A DNA stretch of 64,000 bases from Fibrobacter sp. UWB10 (GTDB lineage Bacteria; Fibrobacterota; Fibrobacteria; Fibrobacterales; Fibrobacteraceae). Both the position numbers and the translations under genes were made by a program. Below the pieces are notes generated by a model. The model searched no databases, had not been told where the DNA came from, and worked only from the letters and a program-made list of their open reading frames with translations. The stretch spans positions 62,001 to 126,000 of the forward strand of contig NZ_FXUE01000007.1 in NCBI RefSeq assembly GCF_900182935.1, read 5' to 3'. This document shows, in pieces, positions 20,609 to 48,603 of the stretch (position 1 is the first letter of the stretch; each line of letters begins with the position of its first letter).

Positions 20609-21553
20609 TTAGAATCGAATTCCAAGCGTCAGGTAATGATACCCGCCGTCAAAGGCCTTCTTGGGGCTGTAGGCGTAGTCGAAATGCGCCATACCGATGG
20701 CAACACCAAGGCCCGCACTGATTCCGTCTTCGGTGTCGGGGCGCGCCGCGTAACCCATACGGAATGCGAGCATTTCAGCGTAAGTCAGTTCGCCCCCGAA
20801 TCGCCACTCGGGGTCAGCCATGTCGGCGCGGCGGTAAGCGTCGGCAGACATATGCAAATTCCACTGGCTTTCCAAATTAAAGAGTTTTGAAATCGGCAAG
20901 ATTCCTGTAATGCCTGCCTGCAAAGCCATCGGGGCGGTTTCGCTTTCGCCATCGTAGTCGCCCATGTAGCCAAAATTCGTAAGCGTCGCGCCAAAGGCAA
21001 AGTATTCATTCACATGGTAGGCGCCACCGATGTCGCCCAAGAACGCAAGCGCCGATTCGTCATCAATGGTCTGCTGGCACAAGCGTGCCGACAGCGCCCA
21101 GTTGAAAACCTTGCTGCGGTTACCGAGGCCCGCCTGCAATGACCAAGCGTAGGCACCATAATCCGACGTCTTAAAGCCTTCTTCGTCGCGGCCTTCAATA
21201 CCATCGTAACCCAAAAATTCAAAACCAGCCGACACCGTGAGCGGGAATTTCCAGAACTCAAACGGAAGCGCGAAATACGCCGTCGTAAAATCGTCAGCCG
21301 TCATTTCCGGGAAAATAACATGGTTTATGCCCGCCTCGGCTTCTTGAACAGTTGCCATGGCCAGCGGGTTACGCGAAATTTCAGAAGCATTCGCCGCATC
21401 GGCAACACCCGCACCCGAAAGGCCGGCAGTCCTAGCCGAAGCATGCATCGAAAGATACTTCATCGATACCCCGCCGGCATCTACATTCCAATGCTCCCCG
21501 GCAAAAGCAAGGGAACATGCAACAAGACTTATAGCGAGGATCTTCTTATTCAT
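20609..21553 (-). CDS. PorV/PorQ-family outer-membrane beta-barrel
   Basis: This encodes 314 residues. The signal peptide is MNKKILAISLVACSLAFA. The mature start (GGVSMKYLSMHASARTAGLSGAGVADA) and NPLAMA are typical of the PorV/PorQ (UPF0164-like) family, FadL-like barrels that act as shuttle or receptor parts of type IX secretion in Bacteroidota and Fibrobacterota. Alternating strands run to the C-terminal YHYLTLGIRF, an outer-membrane-protein end with terminal Phe. It is convergent with the sigma-54 activator gene. Whether this copy serves T9SS or another role is not shown. Confidence 0.8.
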   Translation of the reverse strand: MNKKILAISLVACSLAFAGEHWNVDAGGVSMKYLSMHASARTAGLSGAGVADAANASEISRNPLAMATVQEAEAGINHVIFPEMTADDFTTAYFALPFEFWKFPLTVSAGFEFLGYDGIEGRDEEGFKTSDYGAYAWSLQAGLGNRSKVFNWALSARLCQQTIDDESALAFLGDIGGAYHVNEYFAFGATLTNFGYMGDYDGESETAPMALQAGITGILPISKLFNLESQWNLHMSADAYRRADMADPEWRFGGELTYAEMLAFRMGYAARPDTEDGISAGLGVAIGMAHFDYAYSPKKAFDGGYHYLTLGIRF

Positions 21554-44946: not shown

Positions 44947-46467
44947 CTAGAACTGTTCGAAGAACTTGTGGACTTCTTCGGGAACCCAGGTGCTTTCCCA
45001 GTTCCAACCCACGCTCATGTTGCCGGTATCGTGGGCTGTCCACTGGTGGTCACCCGGCCAGCTGCACCATTTTACGGGGAAGCGTTCGTCGACGGTCGTA
45101 AAGTCGTAGCACACGTGGCCGGTGTTGCCGCTCACTTCCTTGGGCTTTTCGGAACTTGCGTCAGTGAAGTCGCCATTCGCGTCTGCCTTGCCGTTACGCT
45201 TTAGGATGCGCGGGAGAGCGCTGTTCTTCGCGCGGTTATAATCGCAGCGACCATCGTTCACGCCGTGCACGTTCATCCAGGCAATAGGCAGGTTCTTCAT
45301 GTTGTTGCCTTCGGGGAGCCAGATGTTGTAATCAGCTACGGCGTAAGTGGCGGCAGCACGCACGCGGCTCTGCATGTCCTGCATCAGAGAATAGCTGAAC
45401 ATGGCGCCATAGCTGAAGCCAGTAATGAACACGCGGCTCGTGTCAACGCAGTAGTTTTCGTTCAGAGTCGTGAGCGTCTGGGCGAAGAAATCGTGATCGC
45501 TCTGGCCCTTGTTCCATAAACCACCGATTGCATCGAGCGAAACAAAGATGTAGTCACCGTTCTTGTCGAGCACCTGCTGGCCATAGTACGGTGTCGGATG
45601 GTCGTAGTCTGCTTTGTGATGCACAAAGTCTTCGCCACTGCTACCATAGCAGTGCAATGCAAACAGAACCTTGTGCGGTTTTGTGTTGTCGTAATTCTTG
45701 GGCAAGGTGATAAAGTATTTGCGGCTGTCGCTGCCTACCTGAATCTGGAACTGGTCACCATTTTCAACGCTCTTGACCTTTTGCAACTTGGAATTGCTGC
45801 CGCAGCCCTTACTCGGGGTGGGCGCGTTGCCGAGAGCATAGCCAAACTTGAACTGGGGAGCGGTTGCCGTGAGTTTTACATTGAGAGTGGTGTCCAGCGT
45901 GCCGAGCGGTACGGTAAGCGTGTCATAGCCTTCGAGCACAAAGCGGATTGCTTCACCCGGAGCAGCCTCTTTCATGAGGGCGCCACTGGCCTGCGAGCCA
46001 ATTGCACTATTAAAGCCGCCATCGGTCGTAAACTTGAAATTATGCTTGGCAGATCCGACAGAAACCTGCGCAAAGTACGTGCCGCGGGCCTTGACTGCGT
46101 TGCTCAAGTTATAAGAGCCTGCGCCCTGCAGTGTTTTCTGGAAAACCTGGTTGCCAAGCGAGTTGAAAATTTTTACCTGAACGGGCTGCGTGCTGCTCTG
46201 GGAATACGAAAGAACGCCATTATTCACGCCAATATAGCCTACGCTATTCTTGACGGCATGAATTCCCGTTTCTTCTACATCAATGGAGAATTTGCCCTGG
46301 TCATCCGTTGTGGTTTGACGGCCTTCTTTCAGAAGGTCTACTGCGACACCCTTGAGGCCTTTACCCTGGTCGTCAGAAACGGAACCAGAAATGGAATATG
46401 CAGACGCCATTCCGCAAAAAGCGAGAACGCACGCTGTCGTGAATAAATTGGTTGCCTTGATAAGCAT
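44947..46467 (-). CDS. secreted esterase (PHB-depolymerase/feruloyl-esterase type) with N-terminal accessory modules
   Basis: This encodes 506 residues from ATG 46467 (AAGGAG upstream); longer starts are rejected. After the signal MLIKATNLFTTACVLAFCGMASA is a carboxypeptidase-regulatory-like domain (SISGSVSDDQGKGLKGVAVDLL), then a module like a T9SS sorting domain (IFNSLGNQVFQKTLQGAG...NAVKARGTYFAQV) at ~95-170, then the hydrolase: YFITLPKNYDNTKPHKVLFALHC, GFSYGAMFSYSL (Ser nucleophile), with Cys pairs. It likely removes ferulate or acetyl groups from xylan (CE1/LpqC-like). The sorting-like module is internal, not C-terminal. Confidence 0.82.
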   Translation of the reverse strand: MLIKATNLFTTACVLAFCGMASAYSISGSVSDDQGKGLKGVAVDLLKEGRQTTTDDQGKFSIDVEETGIHAVKNSVGYIGVNNGVLSYSQSSTQPVQVKIFNSLGNQVFQKTLQGAGSYNLSNAVKARGTYFAQVSVGSAKHNFKFTTDGGFNSAIGSQASGALMKEAAPGEAIRFVLEGYDTLTVPLGTLDTTLNVKLTATAPQFKFGYALGNAPTPSKGCGSNSKLQKVKSVENGDQFQIQVGSDSRKYFITLPKNYDNTKPHKVLFALHCYGSSGEDFVHHKADYDHPTPYYGQQVLDKNGDYIFVSLDAIGGLWNKGQSDHDFFAQTLTTLNENYCVDTSRVFITGFSYGAMFSYSLMQDMQSRVRAAATYAVADYNIWLPEGNNMKNLPIAWMNVHGVNDGRCDYNRAKNSALPRILKRNGKADANGDFTDASSEKPKEVSGNTGHVCYDFTTVDERFPVKWCSWPGDHQWTAHDTGNMSVGWNWESTWVPEEVHKFFEQF

Positions 46468-46703
46468 GATGACTCCTTTTTCAAAATGCCCCTTTACAAC
46501 ACACCACTCCATGATGGAATATAAACTATAAGCGGGCAAGAATCTCGCCACAGAGCGCCCTGATTATGGATGAATTGTCTATAAAAATAAGTTTACGCTC
46601 CGCATTTTATCCATTTTTCATATTTTACAAGTAACATAAAAAAAATATTGAAATAAGCACCTGATTTCTATATTGCCGTCCGCCAAATTTTTTTGGAGGA
46701 ATC

Positions 46704-47663
46704 ATGAACAAGAAAGTTCTTACTGCCGCCACTGTTGCAGTTTTGTCGTGCTTCGTTTCAACGGCTTGGGCAGAAAGACCGAACGAAGATGTGACTTGCA
46801 AGTTCCCGGGCGGAGCTTACTACAAATCCAACAACACCATGTATCTGGAATCGATCAACGACGAAAACGCTAGCGTCGAAATTGCAGAAGAATCCAAGAA
46901 TTGCATTGACGAATTTACTCACAAGGGCGAATTTAACCTTGTAGTGGAACGCAGCACAAAGCTGGCCGCGAATTCGACCATTTCGCTCCCAATGAACTAC
47001 TCGCCGAAAAATTCTTGCATACAGTTGTACGAAGTGGTACAATTCTCCACCGATGACGAAGGCAATTGGAATGCCACCGCAAAGAATATGAAAGGCCAGG
47101 GCGACATGCACAAGCCCATGCTCATGGTTACCGATACCAAAAATAAAGCATGCCAGGATATCAAGGAAATTGAATTTACCGCAAGCAATCTGCAAGCAAT
47201 CACCCAACACACTGCAGCTCAGCAACATCTCGAAGTATACAACCCCAAGACTGGCCACAATGACTGGGCTCTCGAAGGCACCTACAAATTTATCCGTTGG
47301 GAAAAGGACAATGCCGATTTGGGAATCGTTTACGGTTACGCCGCCAAGGACAAGAACAAGGTAGATGCAGGTCATTTCACCCGCATAGGTGCAGGCGCCT
47401 ACCTCCCGCCGATGCGCGCTTACCTCAAGTACATAGGCAATACTCCTCTCGCCAAGTCTGTTGAATCCATTGTCGAACTGCCCGAAACCATCGACGTCAC
47501 GCTTGTCGACGAAGAAGAAGGCACCACGCGTACGGCCCGCTGGAACATGGCTACCGGCGAAATCGTAAAGGTGAACGGCTGGTATGACCTTAAGGGTCGC
47601 AAGCTGAACAGCAAGCCCCAAAACAAGGGCATGTTCATTGGCAACACCAAGGTTCAGAAGTAA
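46704..47663 (+). CDS. secreted protein with T9SS-like C-terminus
   Basis: This encodes 319 residues. GGAGG lies before ATG. The signal is MNKKVLTAATVAVLSCFVSTAWA. The mature protein has several Cys and a predicted beta domain. The C-terminal ~45 residues (GEIVKVNGWYDLKGRKLNSKPQNKGMFI) match the pattern of a type IX secretion or sorting signal (VYDLKGRKL..., KGMYI...). It is 16 bases upstream of a 44-residue peptide gene, which appears to be cotranscribed. The function of the mature domain is unknown. Confidence 0.75.
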   Translation: MNKKVLTAATVAVLSCFVSTAWAERPNEDVTCKFPGGAYYKSNNTMYLESINDENASVEIAEESKNCIDEFTHKGEFNLVVERSTKLAANSTISLPMNYSPKNSCIQLYEVVQFSTDDEGNWNATAKNMKGQGDMHKPMLMVTDTKNKACQDIKEIEFTASNLQAITQHTAAQQHLEVYNPKTGHNDWALEGTYKFIRWEKDNADLGIVYGYAAKDKNKVDAGHFTRIGAGAYLPPMRAYLKYIGNTPLAKSVESIVELPETIDVTLVDEEEGTTRTARWNMATGEIVKVNGWYDLKGRKLNSKPQNKGMFIGNTKVQK

Positions 47664-47679
47664 TTATTAGGGGTTGATT

Positions 47680-47814
47680 ATGGAAAAGAAAGAATATACA
47701 GCACCGAAAATGGAAATCGTCGATTTTGACCATCAAGTGGCTCTGCTCAGCGGAAGCGGCGAAGAACCCTCTGATACATGCGATGATGGTGACTATTGCG
47801 ATGAACTCGGCTAA
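47680..47814 (+). CDS. 44-residue Cys-containing peptide, cotranscribed with the secreted protein
   Basis: ATG 47680-47682, AGGGG upstream, TAA 47812-47814. It begins MEKKEYTAPKMEIVDFDHQV and ends with ALLSGSGEEP, then C34 and C40 five residues apart in an Asp-rich tail. The first part (Y-x-x-P-x-x-E-I/V) followed by a hydrophobic LL-S-G-S-G junction is the pattern of leader-core peptides of Bacteroidota-type small secreted or ribosomally made modified peptides. It is not a known antimicrobial. Its stop touches the convergent rsmA gene. Confidence 0.7.
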   Translation: MEKKEYTAPKMEIVDFDHQVALLSGSGEEPSDTCDDGDYCDELG

Positions 47815-48603
47815 TTAAGCCTGCTCGCCCACAATCACCTTGTAGAATTCAAGGAACTGTGCAGGCGAAAGTTCTTCGGCACGAACGGTTGTCGGATAAT
47901 CCAGGAGCTCGATAGCTTCCTGGATTTTCTTTTTGTCATAGGCGCGGCCGAACGAATTGGCAAGGGTTTTGCGCTTTTGGGTGAAGGCGGCGCGTACAAA
48001 GTCAAAAAAGCCTTCGGGAGCCTGGAGCGCGTCTGCCTTGGGCGTCAAGAGCATGGTAGCGCTGTCCACATTGGGGCGCGGGGTAAAATGCTCGGGCCCA
48101 ATCTTGCGCAGAATCTGCGTGTCGGCGTAAGCGGACACCAGAACAGAGAGGCTGCCGTAATTGCTGCTGCAGGGGCTTGCGCAAATGCGCTCGGCGACTT
48201 CGAGCTGCACCATTCCCATAAAGCCCTTGGTCAAGTGTAATTTGGGCATAAGGCCCGCGATAATCGCAGTCGATACGTTGTACGGCAAGTTACCCGTAAC
48301 CCAGGGCTTTTCATGGGCATCCAGAAACGCCTGCAAGTCAAACTTCAAAAAGTCAATGTTTTCGATATGGAAGTTTTCGCGGCCCTGGAATTTTTGTTGC
48401 AAAAATTCCACGCACTGCTCGTCGATTTCGACGGCAGTGAGTTCCACGGCGCGTTCAAGCAAGTGTTCAGTAAGGGCGCCGTGCCCAGGGCCGATTTCAA
48501 GCACCCAGTCGCCCGCATTCGCCGGCAAATCGCCCGCAATCATTTGGGCGGTCGGTACATCCAAAAAGTTCTGACCAAATTTACGGCGTCTTGCTCTATC
48601 CAT
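47815..48603 (-). CDS. rsmA: 16S rRNA dimethyladenosine transferase
   Basis: This encodes 262 residues from Met at 48603 (MDRARRRKFGQNFL, the family start); the upstream in-frame Met at 48639 gives a non-conserved extension. It dimethylates A1518 and A1519 in 16S rRNA. Motif I is EIGPGHGALT, the target-binding motif NLPYNVS (NLPY) near ~113-119, and QNFL at the start. Length fits. It is convergent with the 44-aa peptide and followed in minus direction by no close gene; tmk is 70 bases upstream and may share a promoter. Confidence 0.93.
   Translation of the reverse strand: MDRARRRKFGQNFLDVPTAQMIAGDLPANAGDWVLEIGPGHGALTEHLLERAVELTAVEIDEQCVEFLQQKFQGRENFHIENIDFLKFDLQAFLDAHEKPWVTGNLPYNVSTAIIAGLMPKLHLTKGFMGMVQLEVAERICASPCSSNYGSLSVLVSAYADTQILRKIGPEHFTPRPNVDSATMLLTPKADALQAPEGFFDFVRAAFTQKRKTLANSFGRAYDKKKIQEAIELLDYPTTVRAEELSPAQFLEFYKVIVGEQA

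Follow-up and report, generated by a model that had tools for sequence, protein, structure and literature searches.

What is the 44-residue open reading frame that lies immediately behind a secreted-protein gene in the gut bacterium Fibrobacter sp. UWB10: is it a gene at all, and if so, what acts on its product and why does it travel with a secreted protein? The pair lies in a 64,000-nucleotide stretch of DNA, hereafter the window. A preliminary description based on the letters of the window alone had noted a short ORF with a ribosome-binding site 16 bases behind a protein with a T9SS-like tail, a YxxPxxE motif near its start, an LL-SGSG junction and a pair of Cys residues, and had read it as a leader–core-like peptide that the neighbouring protein may carry or process, with no radical-SAM or protease gene close by. 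The observation itself is confirmed by our analysis. The interpretation is supported in part, as set out below.

The two genes stand alone between an esterase-like gene on the other strand and a convergent rsmA. The secreted-protein gene ends in TAA at 47661–47663, and after 16 nt the peptide gene follows, encoding MEKKEYTAPKMEIVDFDHQVALLSGSGEEPSDTCDDGDYCDELG, with Tyr6, Pro9 and Glu12 in the Y-xx-P-xx-E motif, Leu22 and Leu23 before SGSG, Cys34 and Cys40, and AGGGG six bases before the ATG. The stop codons of the peptide gene and rsmA abut with no gap, leaving no room for a separate terminator between them. The coordinates of the features are collected in the table.

Features of the peptide locus and related features; positions are those of the window unless a contig is named
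Position	Strand	Feature	Basis
46704–47663	+	Secreted protein (here SECR), 319 aa, first gene of the pair	ORF with SD-like ggagg; homologues precede nearly all sister peptides; no Pfam or NCBIfam family
46704–46772	+	Probable Sec signal peptide, MNKKVLTAATVAVLSCFVSTAWA	Read by eye from the sequence
46968–47660	+	Conserved SECR C-terminal domain, about 230 aa; among Fibrobacter genomes found with full score only in those that have the peptides; also in Prevotella	267 bits with the domain profile (A2); predicted all-beta, mean pLDDT 65.8
47583–47660	+	C-terminal sorting-like tail, YDLKGRKLNSKPQNKGMFIGNTKVQK, resembling short T9SS CTDs	Motifs B, D and E as described in PMC11969387; no T9SS HMM match
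47669–47673	+	Ribosome-binding site AGGGG of the peptide gene, in the 16-nt gap	Sequence; purine-rich tract kept upstream of orthologues
47680–47814	+	Peptide gene, 44 aa, precursor-like	Seven such peptides in this genome; 15 orthologues under purifying selection
47680–47757	+	Leader-like part, MEKKEYTAPKMEIVDFDHQVALLSGS: KK-x-Y6-xx-P9-x-M11 ... L22 L23 xx S26	Conservation over 63 Fibrobacter and 26 Prevotella peptides; YxxP is the recognition sequence of lasso B1 RREs (PMC12710340)
47758–47811	+	Core-like part, GEEPSDTCDDGDYCDELG: acidic	C...YCDELG kept in orthologues, variable in the wider family
47812–47817		Abutting stop codons of the peptide gene and convergent rsmA	Sequence
44947–46551	−	Esterase-like protein	TIGR04183 match, 26.1 bits (cut-off 23)
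20609–21553	−	PorV/PorQ-family outer-membrane protein, possible T9SS shuttle component; not part of the pair	NF033709, 117 bits, over cut-off
Contig C4: 158219–158998		Full-length SECR homologue without a detectable peptide downstream (locus L143)	In the same genome, beside a paired copy

Several lines of evidence show that the ORF is a gene. A search of its own genome finds six further peptides of the same type, and a profile built from the seven hits 65 of 151 genomes of the phylum, with 1 to 13 peptides per genome. Fifteen orthologues sharing the C...YCDELG end keep the frame and give pS 0.60 against pN 0.18 over all pairs (dN/dS about 0.17), and dS 0.76 against dN 0.18 over the less saturated pairs (dN/dS about 0.24), so the protein sequence is under purifying selection. 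A regulatory short ORF of the attenuator type, or a translational coupling element, is suggested only by the short length and the position close behind a longer gene, and we consider it most unlikely: the ORF lies at the 3′ end of the unit with no gene to regulate downstream, its amino-acid sequence is under selection, and an Rfam search gave no hit. Promoter and terminator scans were at chance level, and a search for plasmid spread gave no DNA match.

Aligned on the YxxP motif, 63 Fibrobacter peptides show K, K, Y, P and M at positions −6, −5, −3, 0 and +2 in 98, 92, 100, 100 and 89% of sequences, L and L at +13 and +14 in 94 and 90%, and S at +17 in 90%. Beyond this Ser no column is strongly conserved, and D/E rise from 14% in the leader to 27% in the tail. 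The Y/F..P motif was also the anchor of the alignment, but the profile found the peptides without it. Twenty-six Prevotella peptides show the same sharp boundary. This is the layout of a RiPP precursor, with a conserved leader and a variable core, and it supports the leader–core reading of the preliminary description. The nearly invariant junction residue, Ser26 in the window peptide, could be a modification site or part of the cleavage site. The Cys pair singled out in that description is weak as a family feature: both Cys are kept in all 15 orthologues of this subgroup but are absent from most sister peptides, and we therefore rejected Cys modification as the general chemistry of the family. 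A radical-SAM-type or GG-Bacteroidales natural product precursor was likewise rejected, as the 44-mer matched no family at E 1 in NCBIfam or Pfam.

The link between the peptide and the neighbouring secreted protein, as opposed to the nature of that link, is strongly supported. Every group of peptides in this genome, in pairs or tandems, follows a secreted protein with the same C-terminal domain, and in four other genomes 27 of the 30 peptide loci examined do so. Conversely, over five genomes, 23 of 26 full-length SECR homologues have a peptide starting within 40 nt. Of 63 collected paired peptides, a set chosen for having a partner, 48 start within 36 nt of the partner’s stop and 15 are second peptides at 130–191 nt. 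Three Fibrobacter genomes without peptides (G045, G063 and G116) also lack the full domain. The pairing is not absolute: full-length SECR homologues at three loci (L126, L135 and L143) have no detectable peptide downstream, and three YxxP peptides have no SECR protein in front, one solitary (L079), one behind another type of ORF (L088) and one behind a different protein ending in ...LYDLLGRIKGFLNIQ (L095).

What the secreted protein does is harder to read from sequence. The SECR domain has no Pfam or NCBIfam match in any of 12 members, so no family points to a catalytic function; Foldseek on its low-confidence model gave nothing with E 0.001 or better and VIA-align none over Z 2.6, results that are uninformative, and a profile search hit one PDB chain (4kca, an endo-arabinanase) only over the C-terminal tail. 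The tail had been described as a T9SS tail, but none of the T9SS models TIGR04183, PF18962 or PF13585 matches the window protein or 12 homologues. By eye, its motif (YDLKGR...KGMFI...K..K) resembles the short T9SS signals of Prevotella intermedia (PMC11969387), which share Y..GR, GxY/F and basic end motifs; we came across no mention of a co-encoded YxxP peptide in that work. The genome has seven hits to the PorV family, two of them over the NCBIfam cut-off, one of these in the window. The esterase-like protein next door has a TIGR04183 match in its middle (residues 111–174) instead of at the C-terminus, behind a CarboxypepD_reg-like domain. In Prevotella-type genomes the YxxP peptides also follow secreted proteins with classic T9SS-like tails but no SECR domain (loci L233, L235, L237 and L252), so the link may be to T9SS cargo in general.

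That no protease or modification gene is close to the peptide is true locally but misleading. The only PqqD hit over cut-off in the genome lies 2.7 kb after a paralogous peptide on another contig, C2, where the order is secreted protein, peptide, NTP_transf_5 nucleotidyltransferase (141.6 bits), HPr-kinase-like protein with a Walker A motif, S24/S26-like peptidase, stand-alone PqqD/RRE (45.9 bits) and an ABC transporter without a peptidase domain. The kinase-like gene is the only HPRK homologue in the genome, although it matches known HPr-kinase models only weakly (19.6 bits against a cut-off of 200 for TIGR04352), and the peptidase is below Pfam cut-offs. None of the partners of the kinase-like gene is near the other peptide loci examined, and six of the seven peptides have no modification gene beside them. 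The operon is on another contig from the window, so action in trans is inferred.

The core set of kinase, peptidase, PqqD and ABC transporter is conserved over Fibrobacter, with NTP_transf_5 and a secreted-protein/peptide pair directly upstream in five of the twelve regions compared (L102, L103, L109, L110 and L111). Two NTP_transf_5 genes lie near the operon in some Fibrobacter (adjacent in L106, apart in L110), suggesting extra tailoring. A scan of GTDB genomes finds 410 relatives of the kinase-like protein, of which the best 80 are from Fibrobacter and mostly rumen Prevotella or other Bacteroidales, the latter at 55–62% identity. Of 43 Bacteroidales loci, 42 keep kinase, peptidase and PqqD, and some hold a secreted-protein/peptide pair (L198, L209 and L211). 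Some Prevotella-type genomes (G196, G211 and G155, the last being the genome of L198) carry 19 to 30 dispersed YxxP peptides, and Prevotella sp. tf2-5 has 16 peptides. The kinase tree puts Fibrobacter and Bacteroidales in nearly separate clades (2 label changes), so recent frequent transfer between the phyla is not supported; a single older transfer is neither shown nor excluded.

The peptide and the stand-alone PqqD co-occur. In the genus Fibrobacter, 60 genomes have both, 2 the peptide only, 1 PqqD only and 4 neither (Fisher p 9.5e-5); in 80 genomes of the genus of Xylanibacter ruminicola Ga6B6 the corresponding counts are 56, 9, 8 and 7 (p 0.009), tests that do not correct for relatedness. 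The nine Prevotella genomes of 65 with peptides that lack a PqqD hit at E 1e-10, and the two Fibrobacter genomes that lack a stand-alone one, are drafts, and incompleteness may explain them.

The predicted fold of the 89-aa PqqD protein (pLDDT 87.6) has the strand–strand–strand–helix–helix–helix order of an RRE. Its nearest solved structures are lasso B1 proteins crystallized with their leader peptides (TbiB1 and TfuB1 among them), with Z 12.1 for 5v1u, 11.8 for 6jx3 and 11.6 for 5v1v over 82 residues, above all others at 9.3 or less; a profile search agrees weakly (6jx3, E 0.0015). YxxP is the published recognition sequence of that RRE group (PMC12710340), and Y and P are present in 63 of 63 Fibrobacter peptides, a correspondence by sequence only. 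HprK and NTP_transf_5 genes occur in lasso clusters (PMC7533575), where an HprK-type kinase, PsmK, phosphorylates Ser and an NTP_transf_5-type protein, PsmN, adds hexose (PMC9266682). These parallels raise the possibility of an ordinary lasso precursor with lost or distant lasso enzymes, which we rejected as very unlikely: no B2 protease family (PF13471) is found anywhere in the genome at E 0.1, no asparagine-synthetase-like cyclase is present in the operon, and the PqqD scores far below the NCBIfam lasso PqqD cut-offs (19.4 against 70 and 16.6 against 80 bits).

We favour, with moderate confidence, the reading that the 44-residue ORF encodes a precursor of an RRE-dependent, RiPP-like modification system that works in trans. 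In this view the leader is bound by the single stand-alone PqqD/RRE protein; the core is then tailored, most plausibly by phosphorylation and/or nucleotidyl or glycosyl transfer on a Ser, with Ser26 the most conserved candidate; the S24/S26 peptidase would remove the leader near the LLxxS junction; and the ABC transporter would export the product. The gene directly upstream would encode the peptide’s dedicated partner, a secreted, probably T9SS-exported surface protein, perhaps a carrier, receptor or anchor. Our data establish the gene, its family, the split into leader and core, the pairing, the operon, the co-occurrence and the RRE-like predicted fold, whereas docking, which motif and fold support, and the chemistry, leader cleavage, export and role of the partner, including whether it carries the peptide, are inferred.

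Two other readings start from the same pairing. The peptide could be an unmodified accessory of the secreted protein, such as a chaperone, an immunity or inhibitor partner or part of its surface complex, with the RRE operon serving other substrates and co-occurring only by shared descent. The near-obligate adjacency and the lack of modification genes beside six of the seven peptides fit this, but we consider it unlikely, because the best conserved residues are the lasso-type RRE recognition sequence and a junction and not a folded interface, because one sister peptide sits directly before the RRE operon, an arrangement repeated in other genomes, and because in Prevotella the same leaders follow secreted proteins that lack the SECR domain. 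Alternatively, the peptide could be a trans-acting docking tag that brings the kinase and nucleotidyltransferase to the co-translated secreted protein as the real substrate, with the variable tail giving pair specificity. Constant co-encoding with a surface protein is compatible with this still less likely reading, but an exporter and a peptidase in the operon fit a processed peptide better, and the secreted protein, with its apparent Sec signal, should leave the cytoplasm on its own.

Among characterized systems, the closest are lasso peptides with split B1/B2 and a tailoring kinase or nucleotidyltransferase (paeninodin and pseudomycoidin), which share the YxxP leader, a stand-alone PqqD-type RRE, HprK-like and NTP_transf_5 proteins and an ABC exporter; here there is no B2 protease and no cyclase in the operon, an S24/S26-like peptidase stands in their place, and many precursors are dispersed over the genome, each behind a secreted protein. 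The HPr-rel-A system (NCBIfam TIGR04352 and partners) has an HprK-related kinase with a PqqD-type protein and a nucleotidyltransferase, but the kinase described here falls far below its cut-off. Trans-acting RiPP systems with many dispersed precursors, such as the prochlorosins, also combine one enzyme set with many precursors with conserved leaders and variable cores, but with other enzymes, and those precursors are not known to be paired each with a secreted protein. RRE-Finder reported about 4,000 discrete lasso-like RREs without lasso peptidase and cyclase, which its authors suggest may belong to uncharacterized RiPP classes (PMC7470986); the present family, in which such an RRE is tied to precursors, an operon and a partner protein, is a plausible member of that pool. 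Literature searches on HPr-rel-A, Prevotella and Fibrobacter RiPPs, T9SS with small proteins and YxxP found no description of this pairing in the open-licence full texts searched, where absence is not proof. RRE-dependent peptide processing is already known, and what is new is its probable use on dispersed precursors, each tied to a secreted protein.

A bolder version of the favoured reading is possible, though we hold it only tentatively. It would be a new class of peptide modification in Fibrobacter and rumen Prevotella, in which one operon of RRE, kinase, nucleotidyltransferase, peptidase and exporter acts in trans on 1 to about 30 dispersed precursors, each encoded with its own T9SS-route surface protein onto which the mature phosphorylated, nucleotidylated or glycosylated peptide is loaded, giving a combinatorial set of peptide-decorated surface proteins. 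More generally, the system we infer would give a very large number of anonymous YxxP micro-ORFs in rumen and gut bacteria a common role, tie some of the orphan discrete RREs of RRE-Finder to precursors and enzymes, and link peptide modification to surface-protein secretion in a major cellulose degrader.
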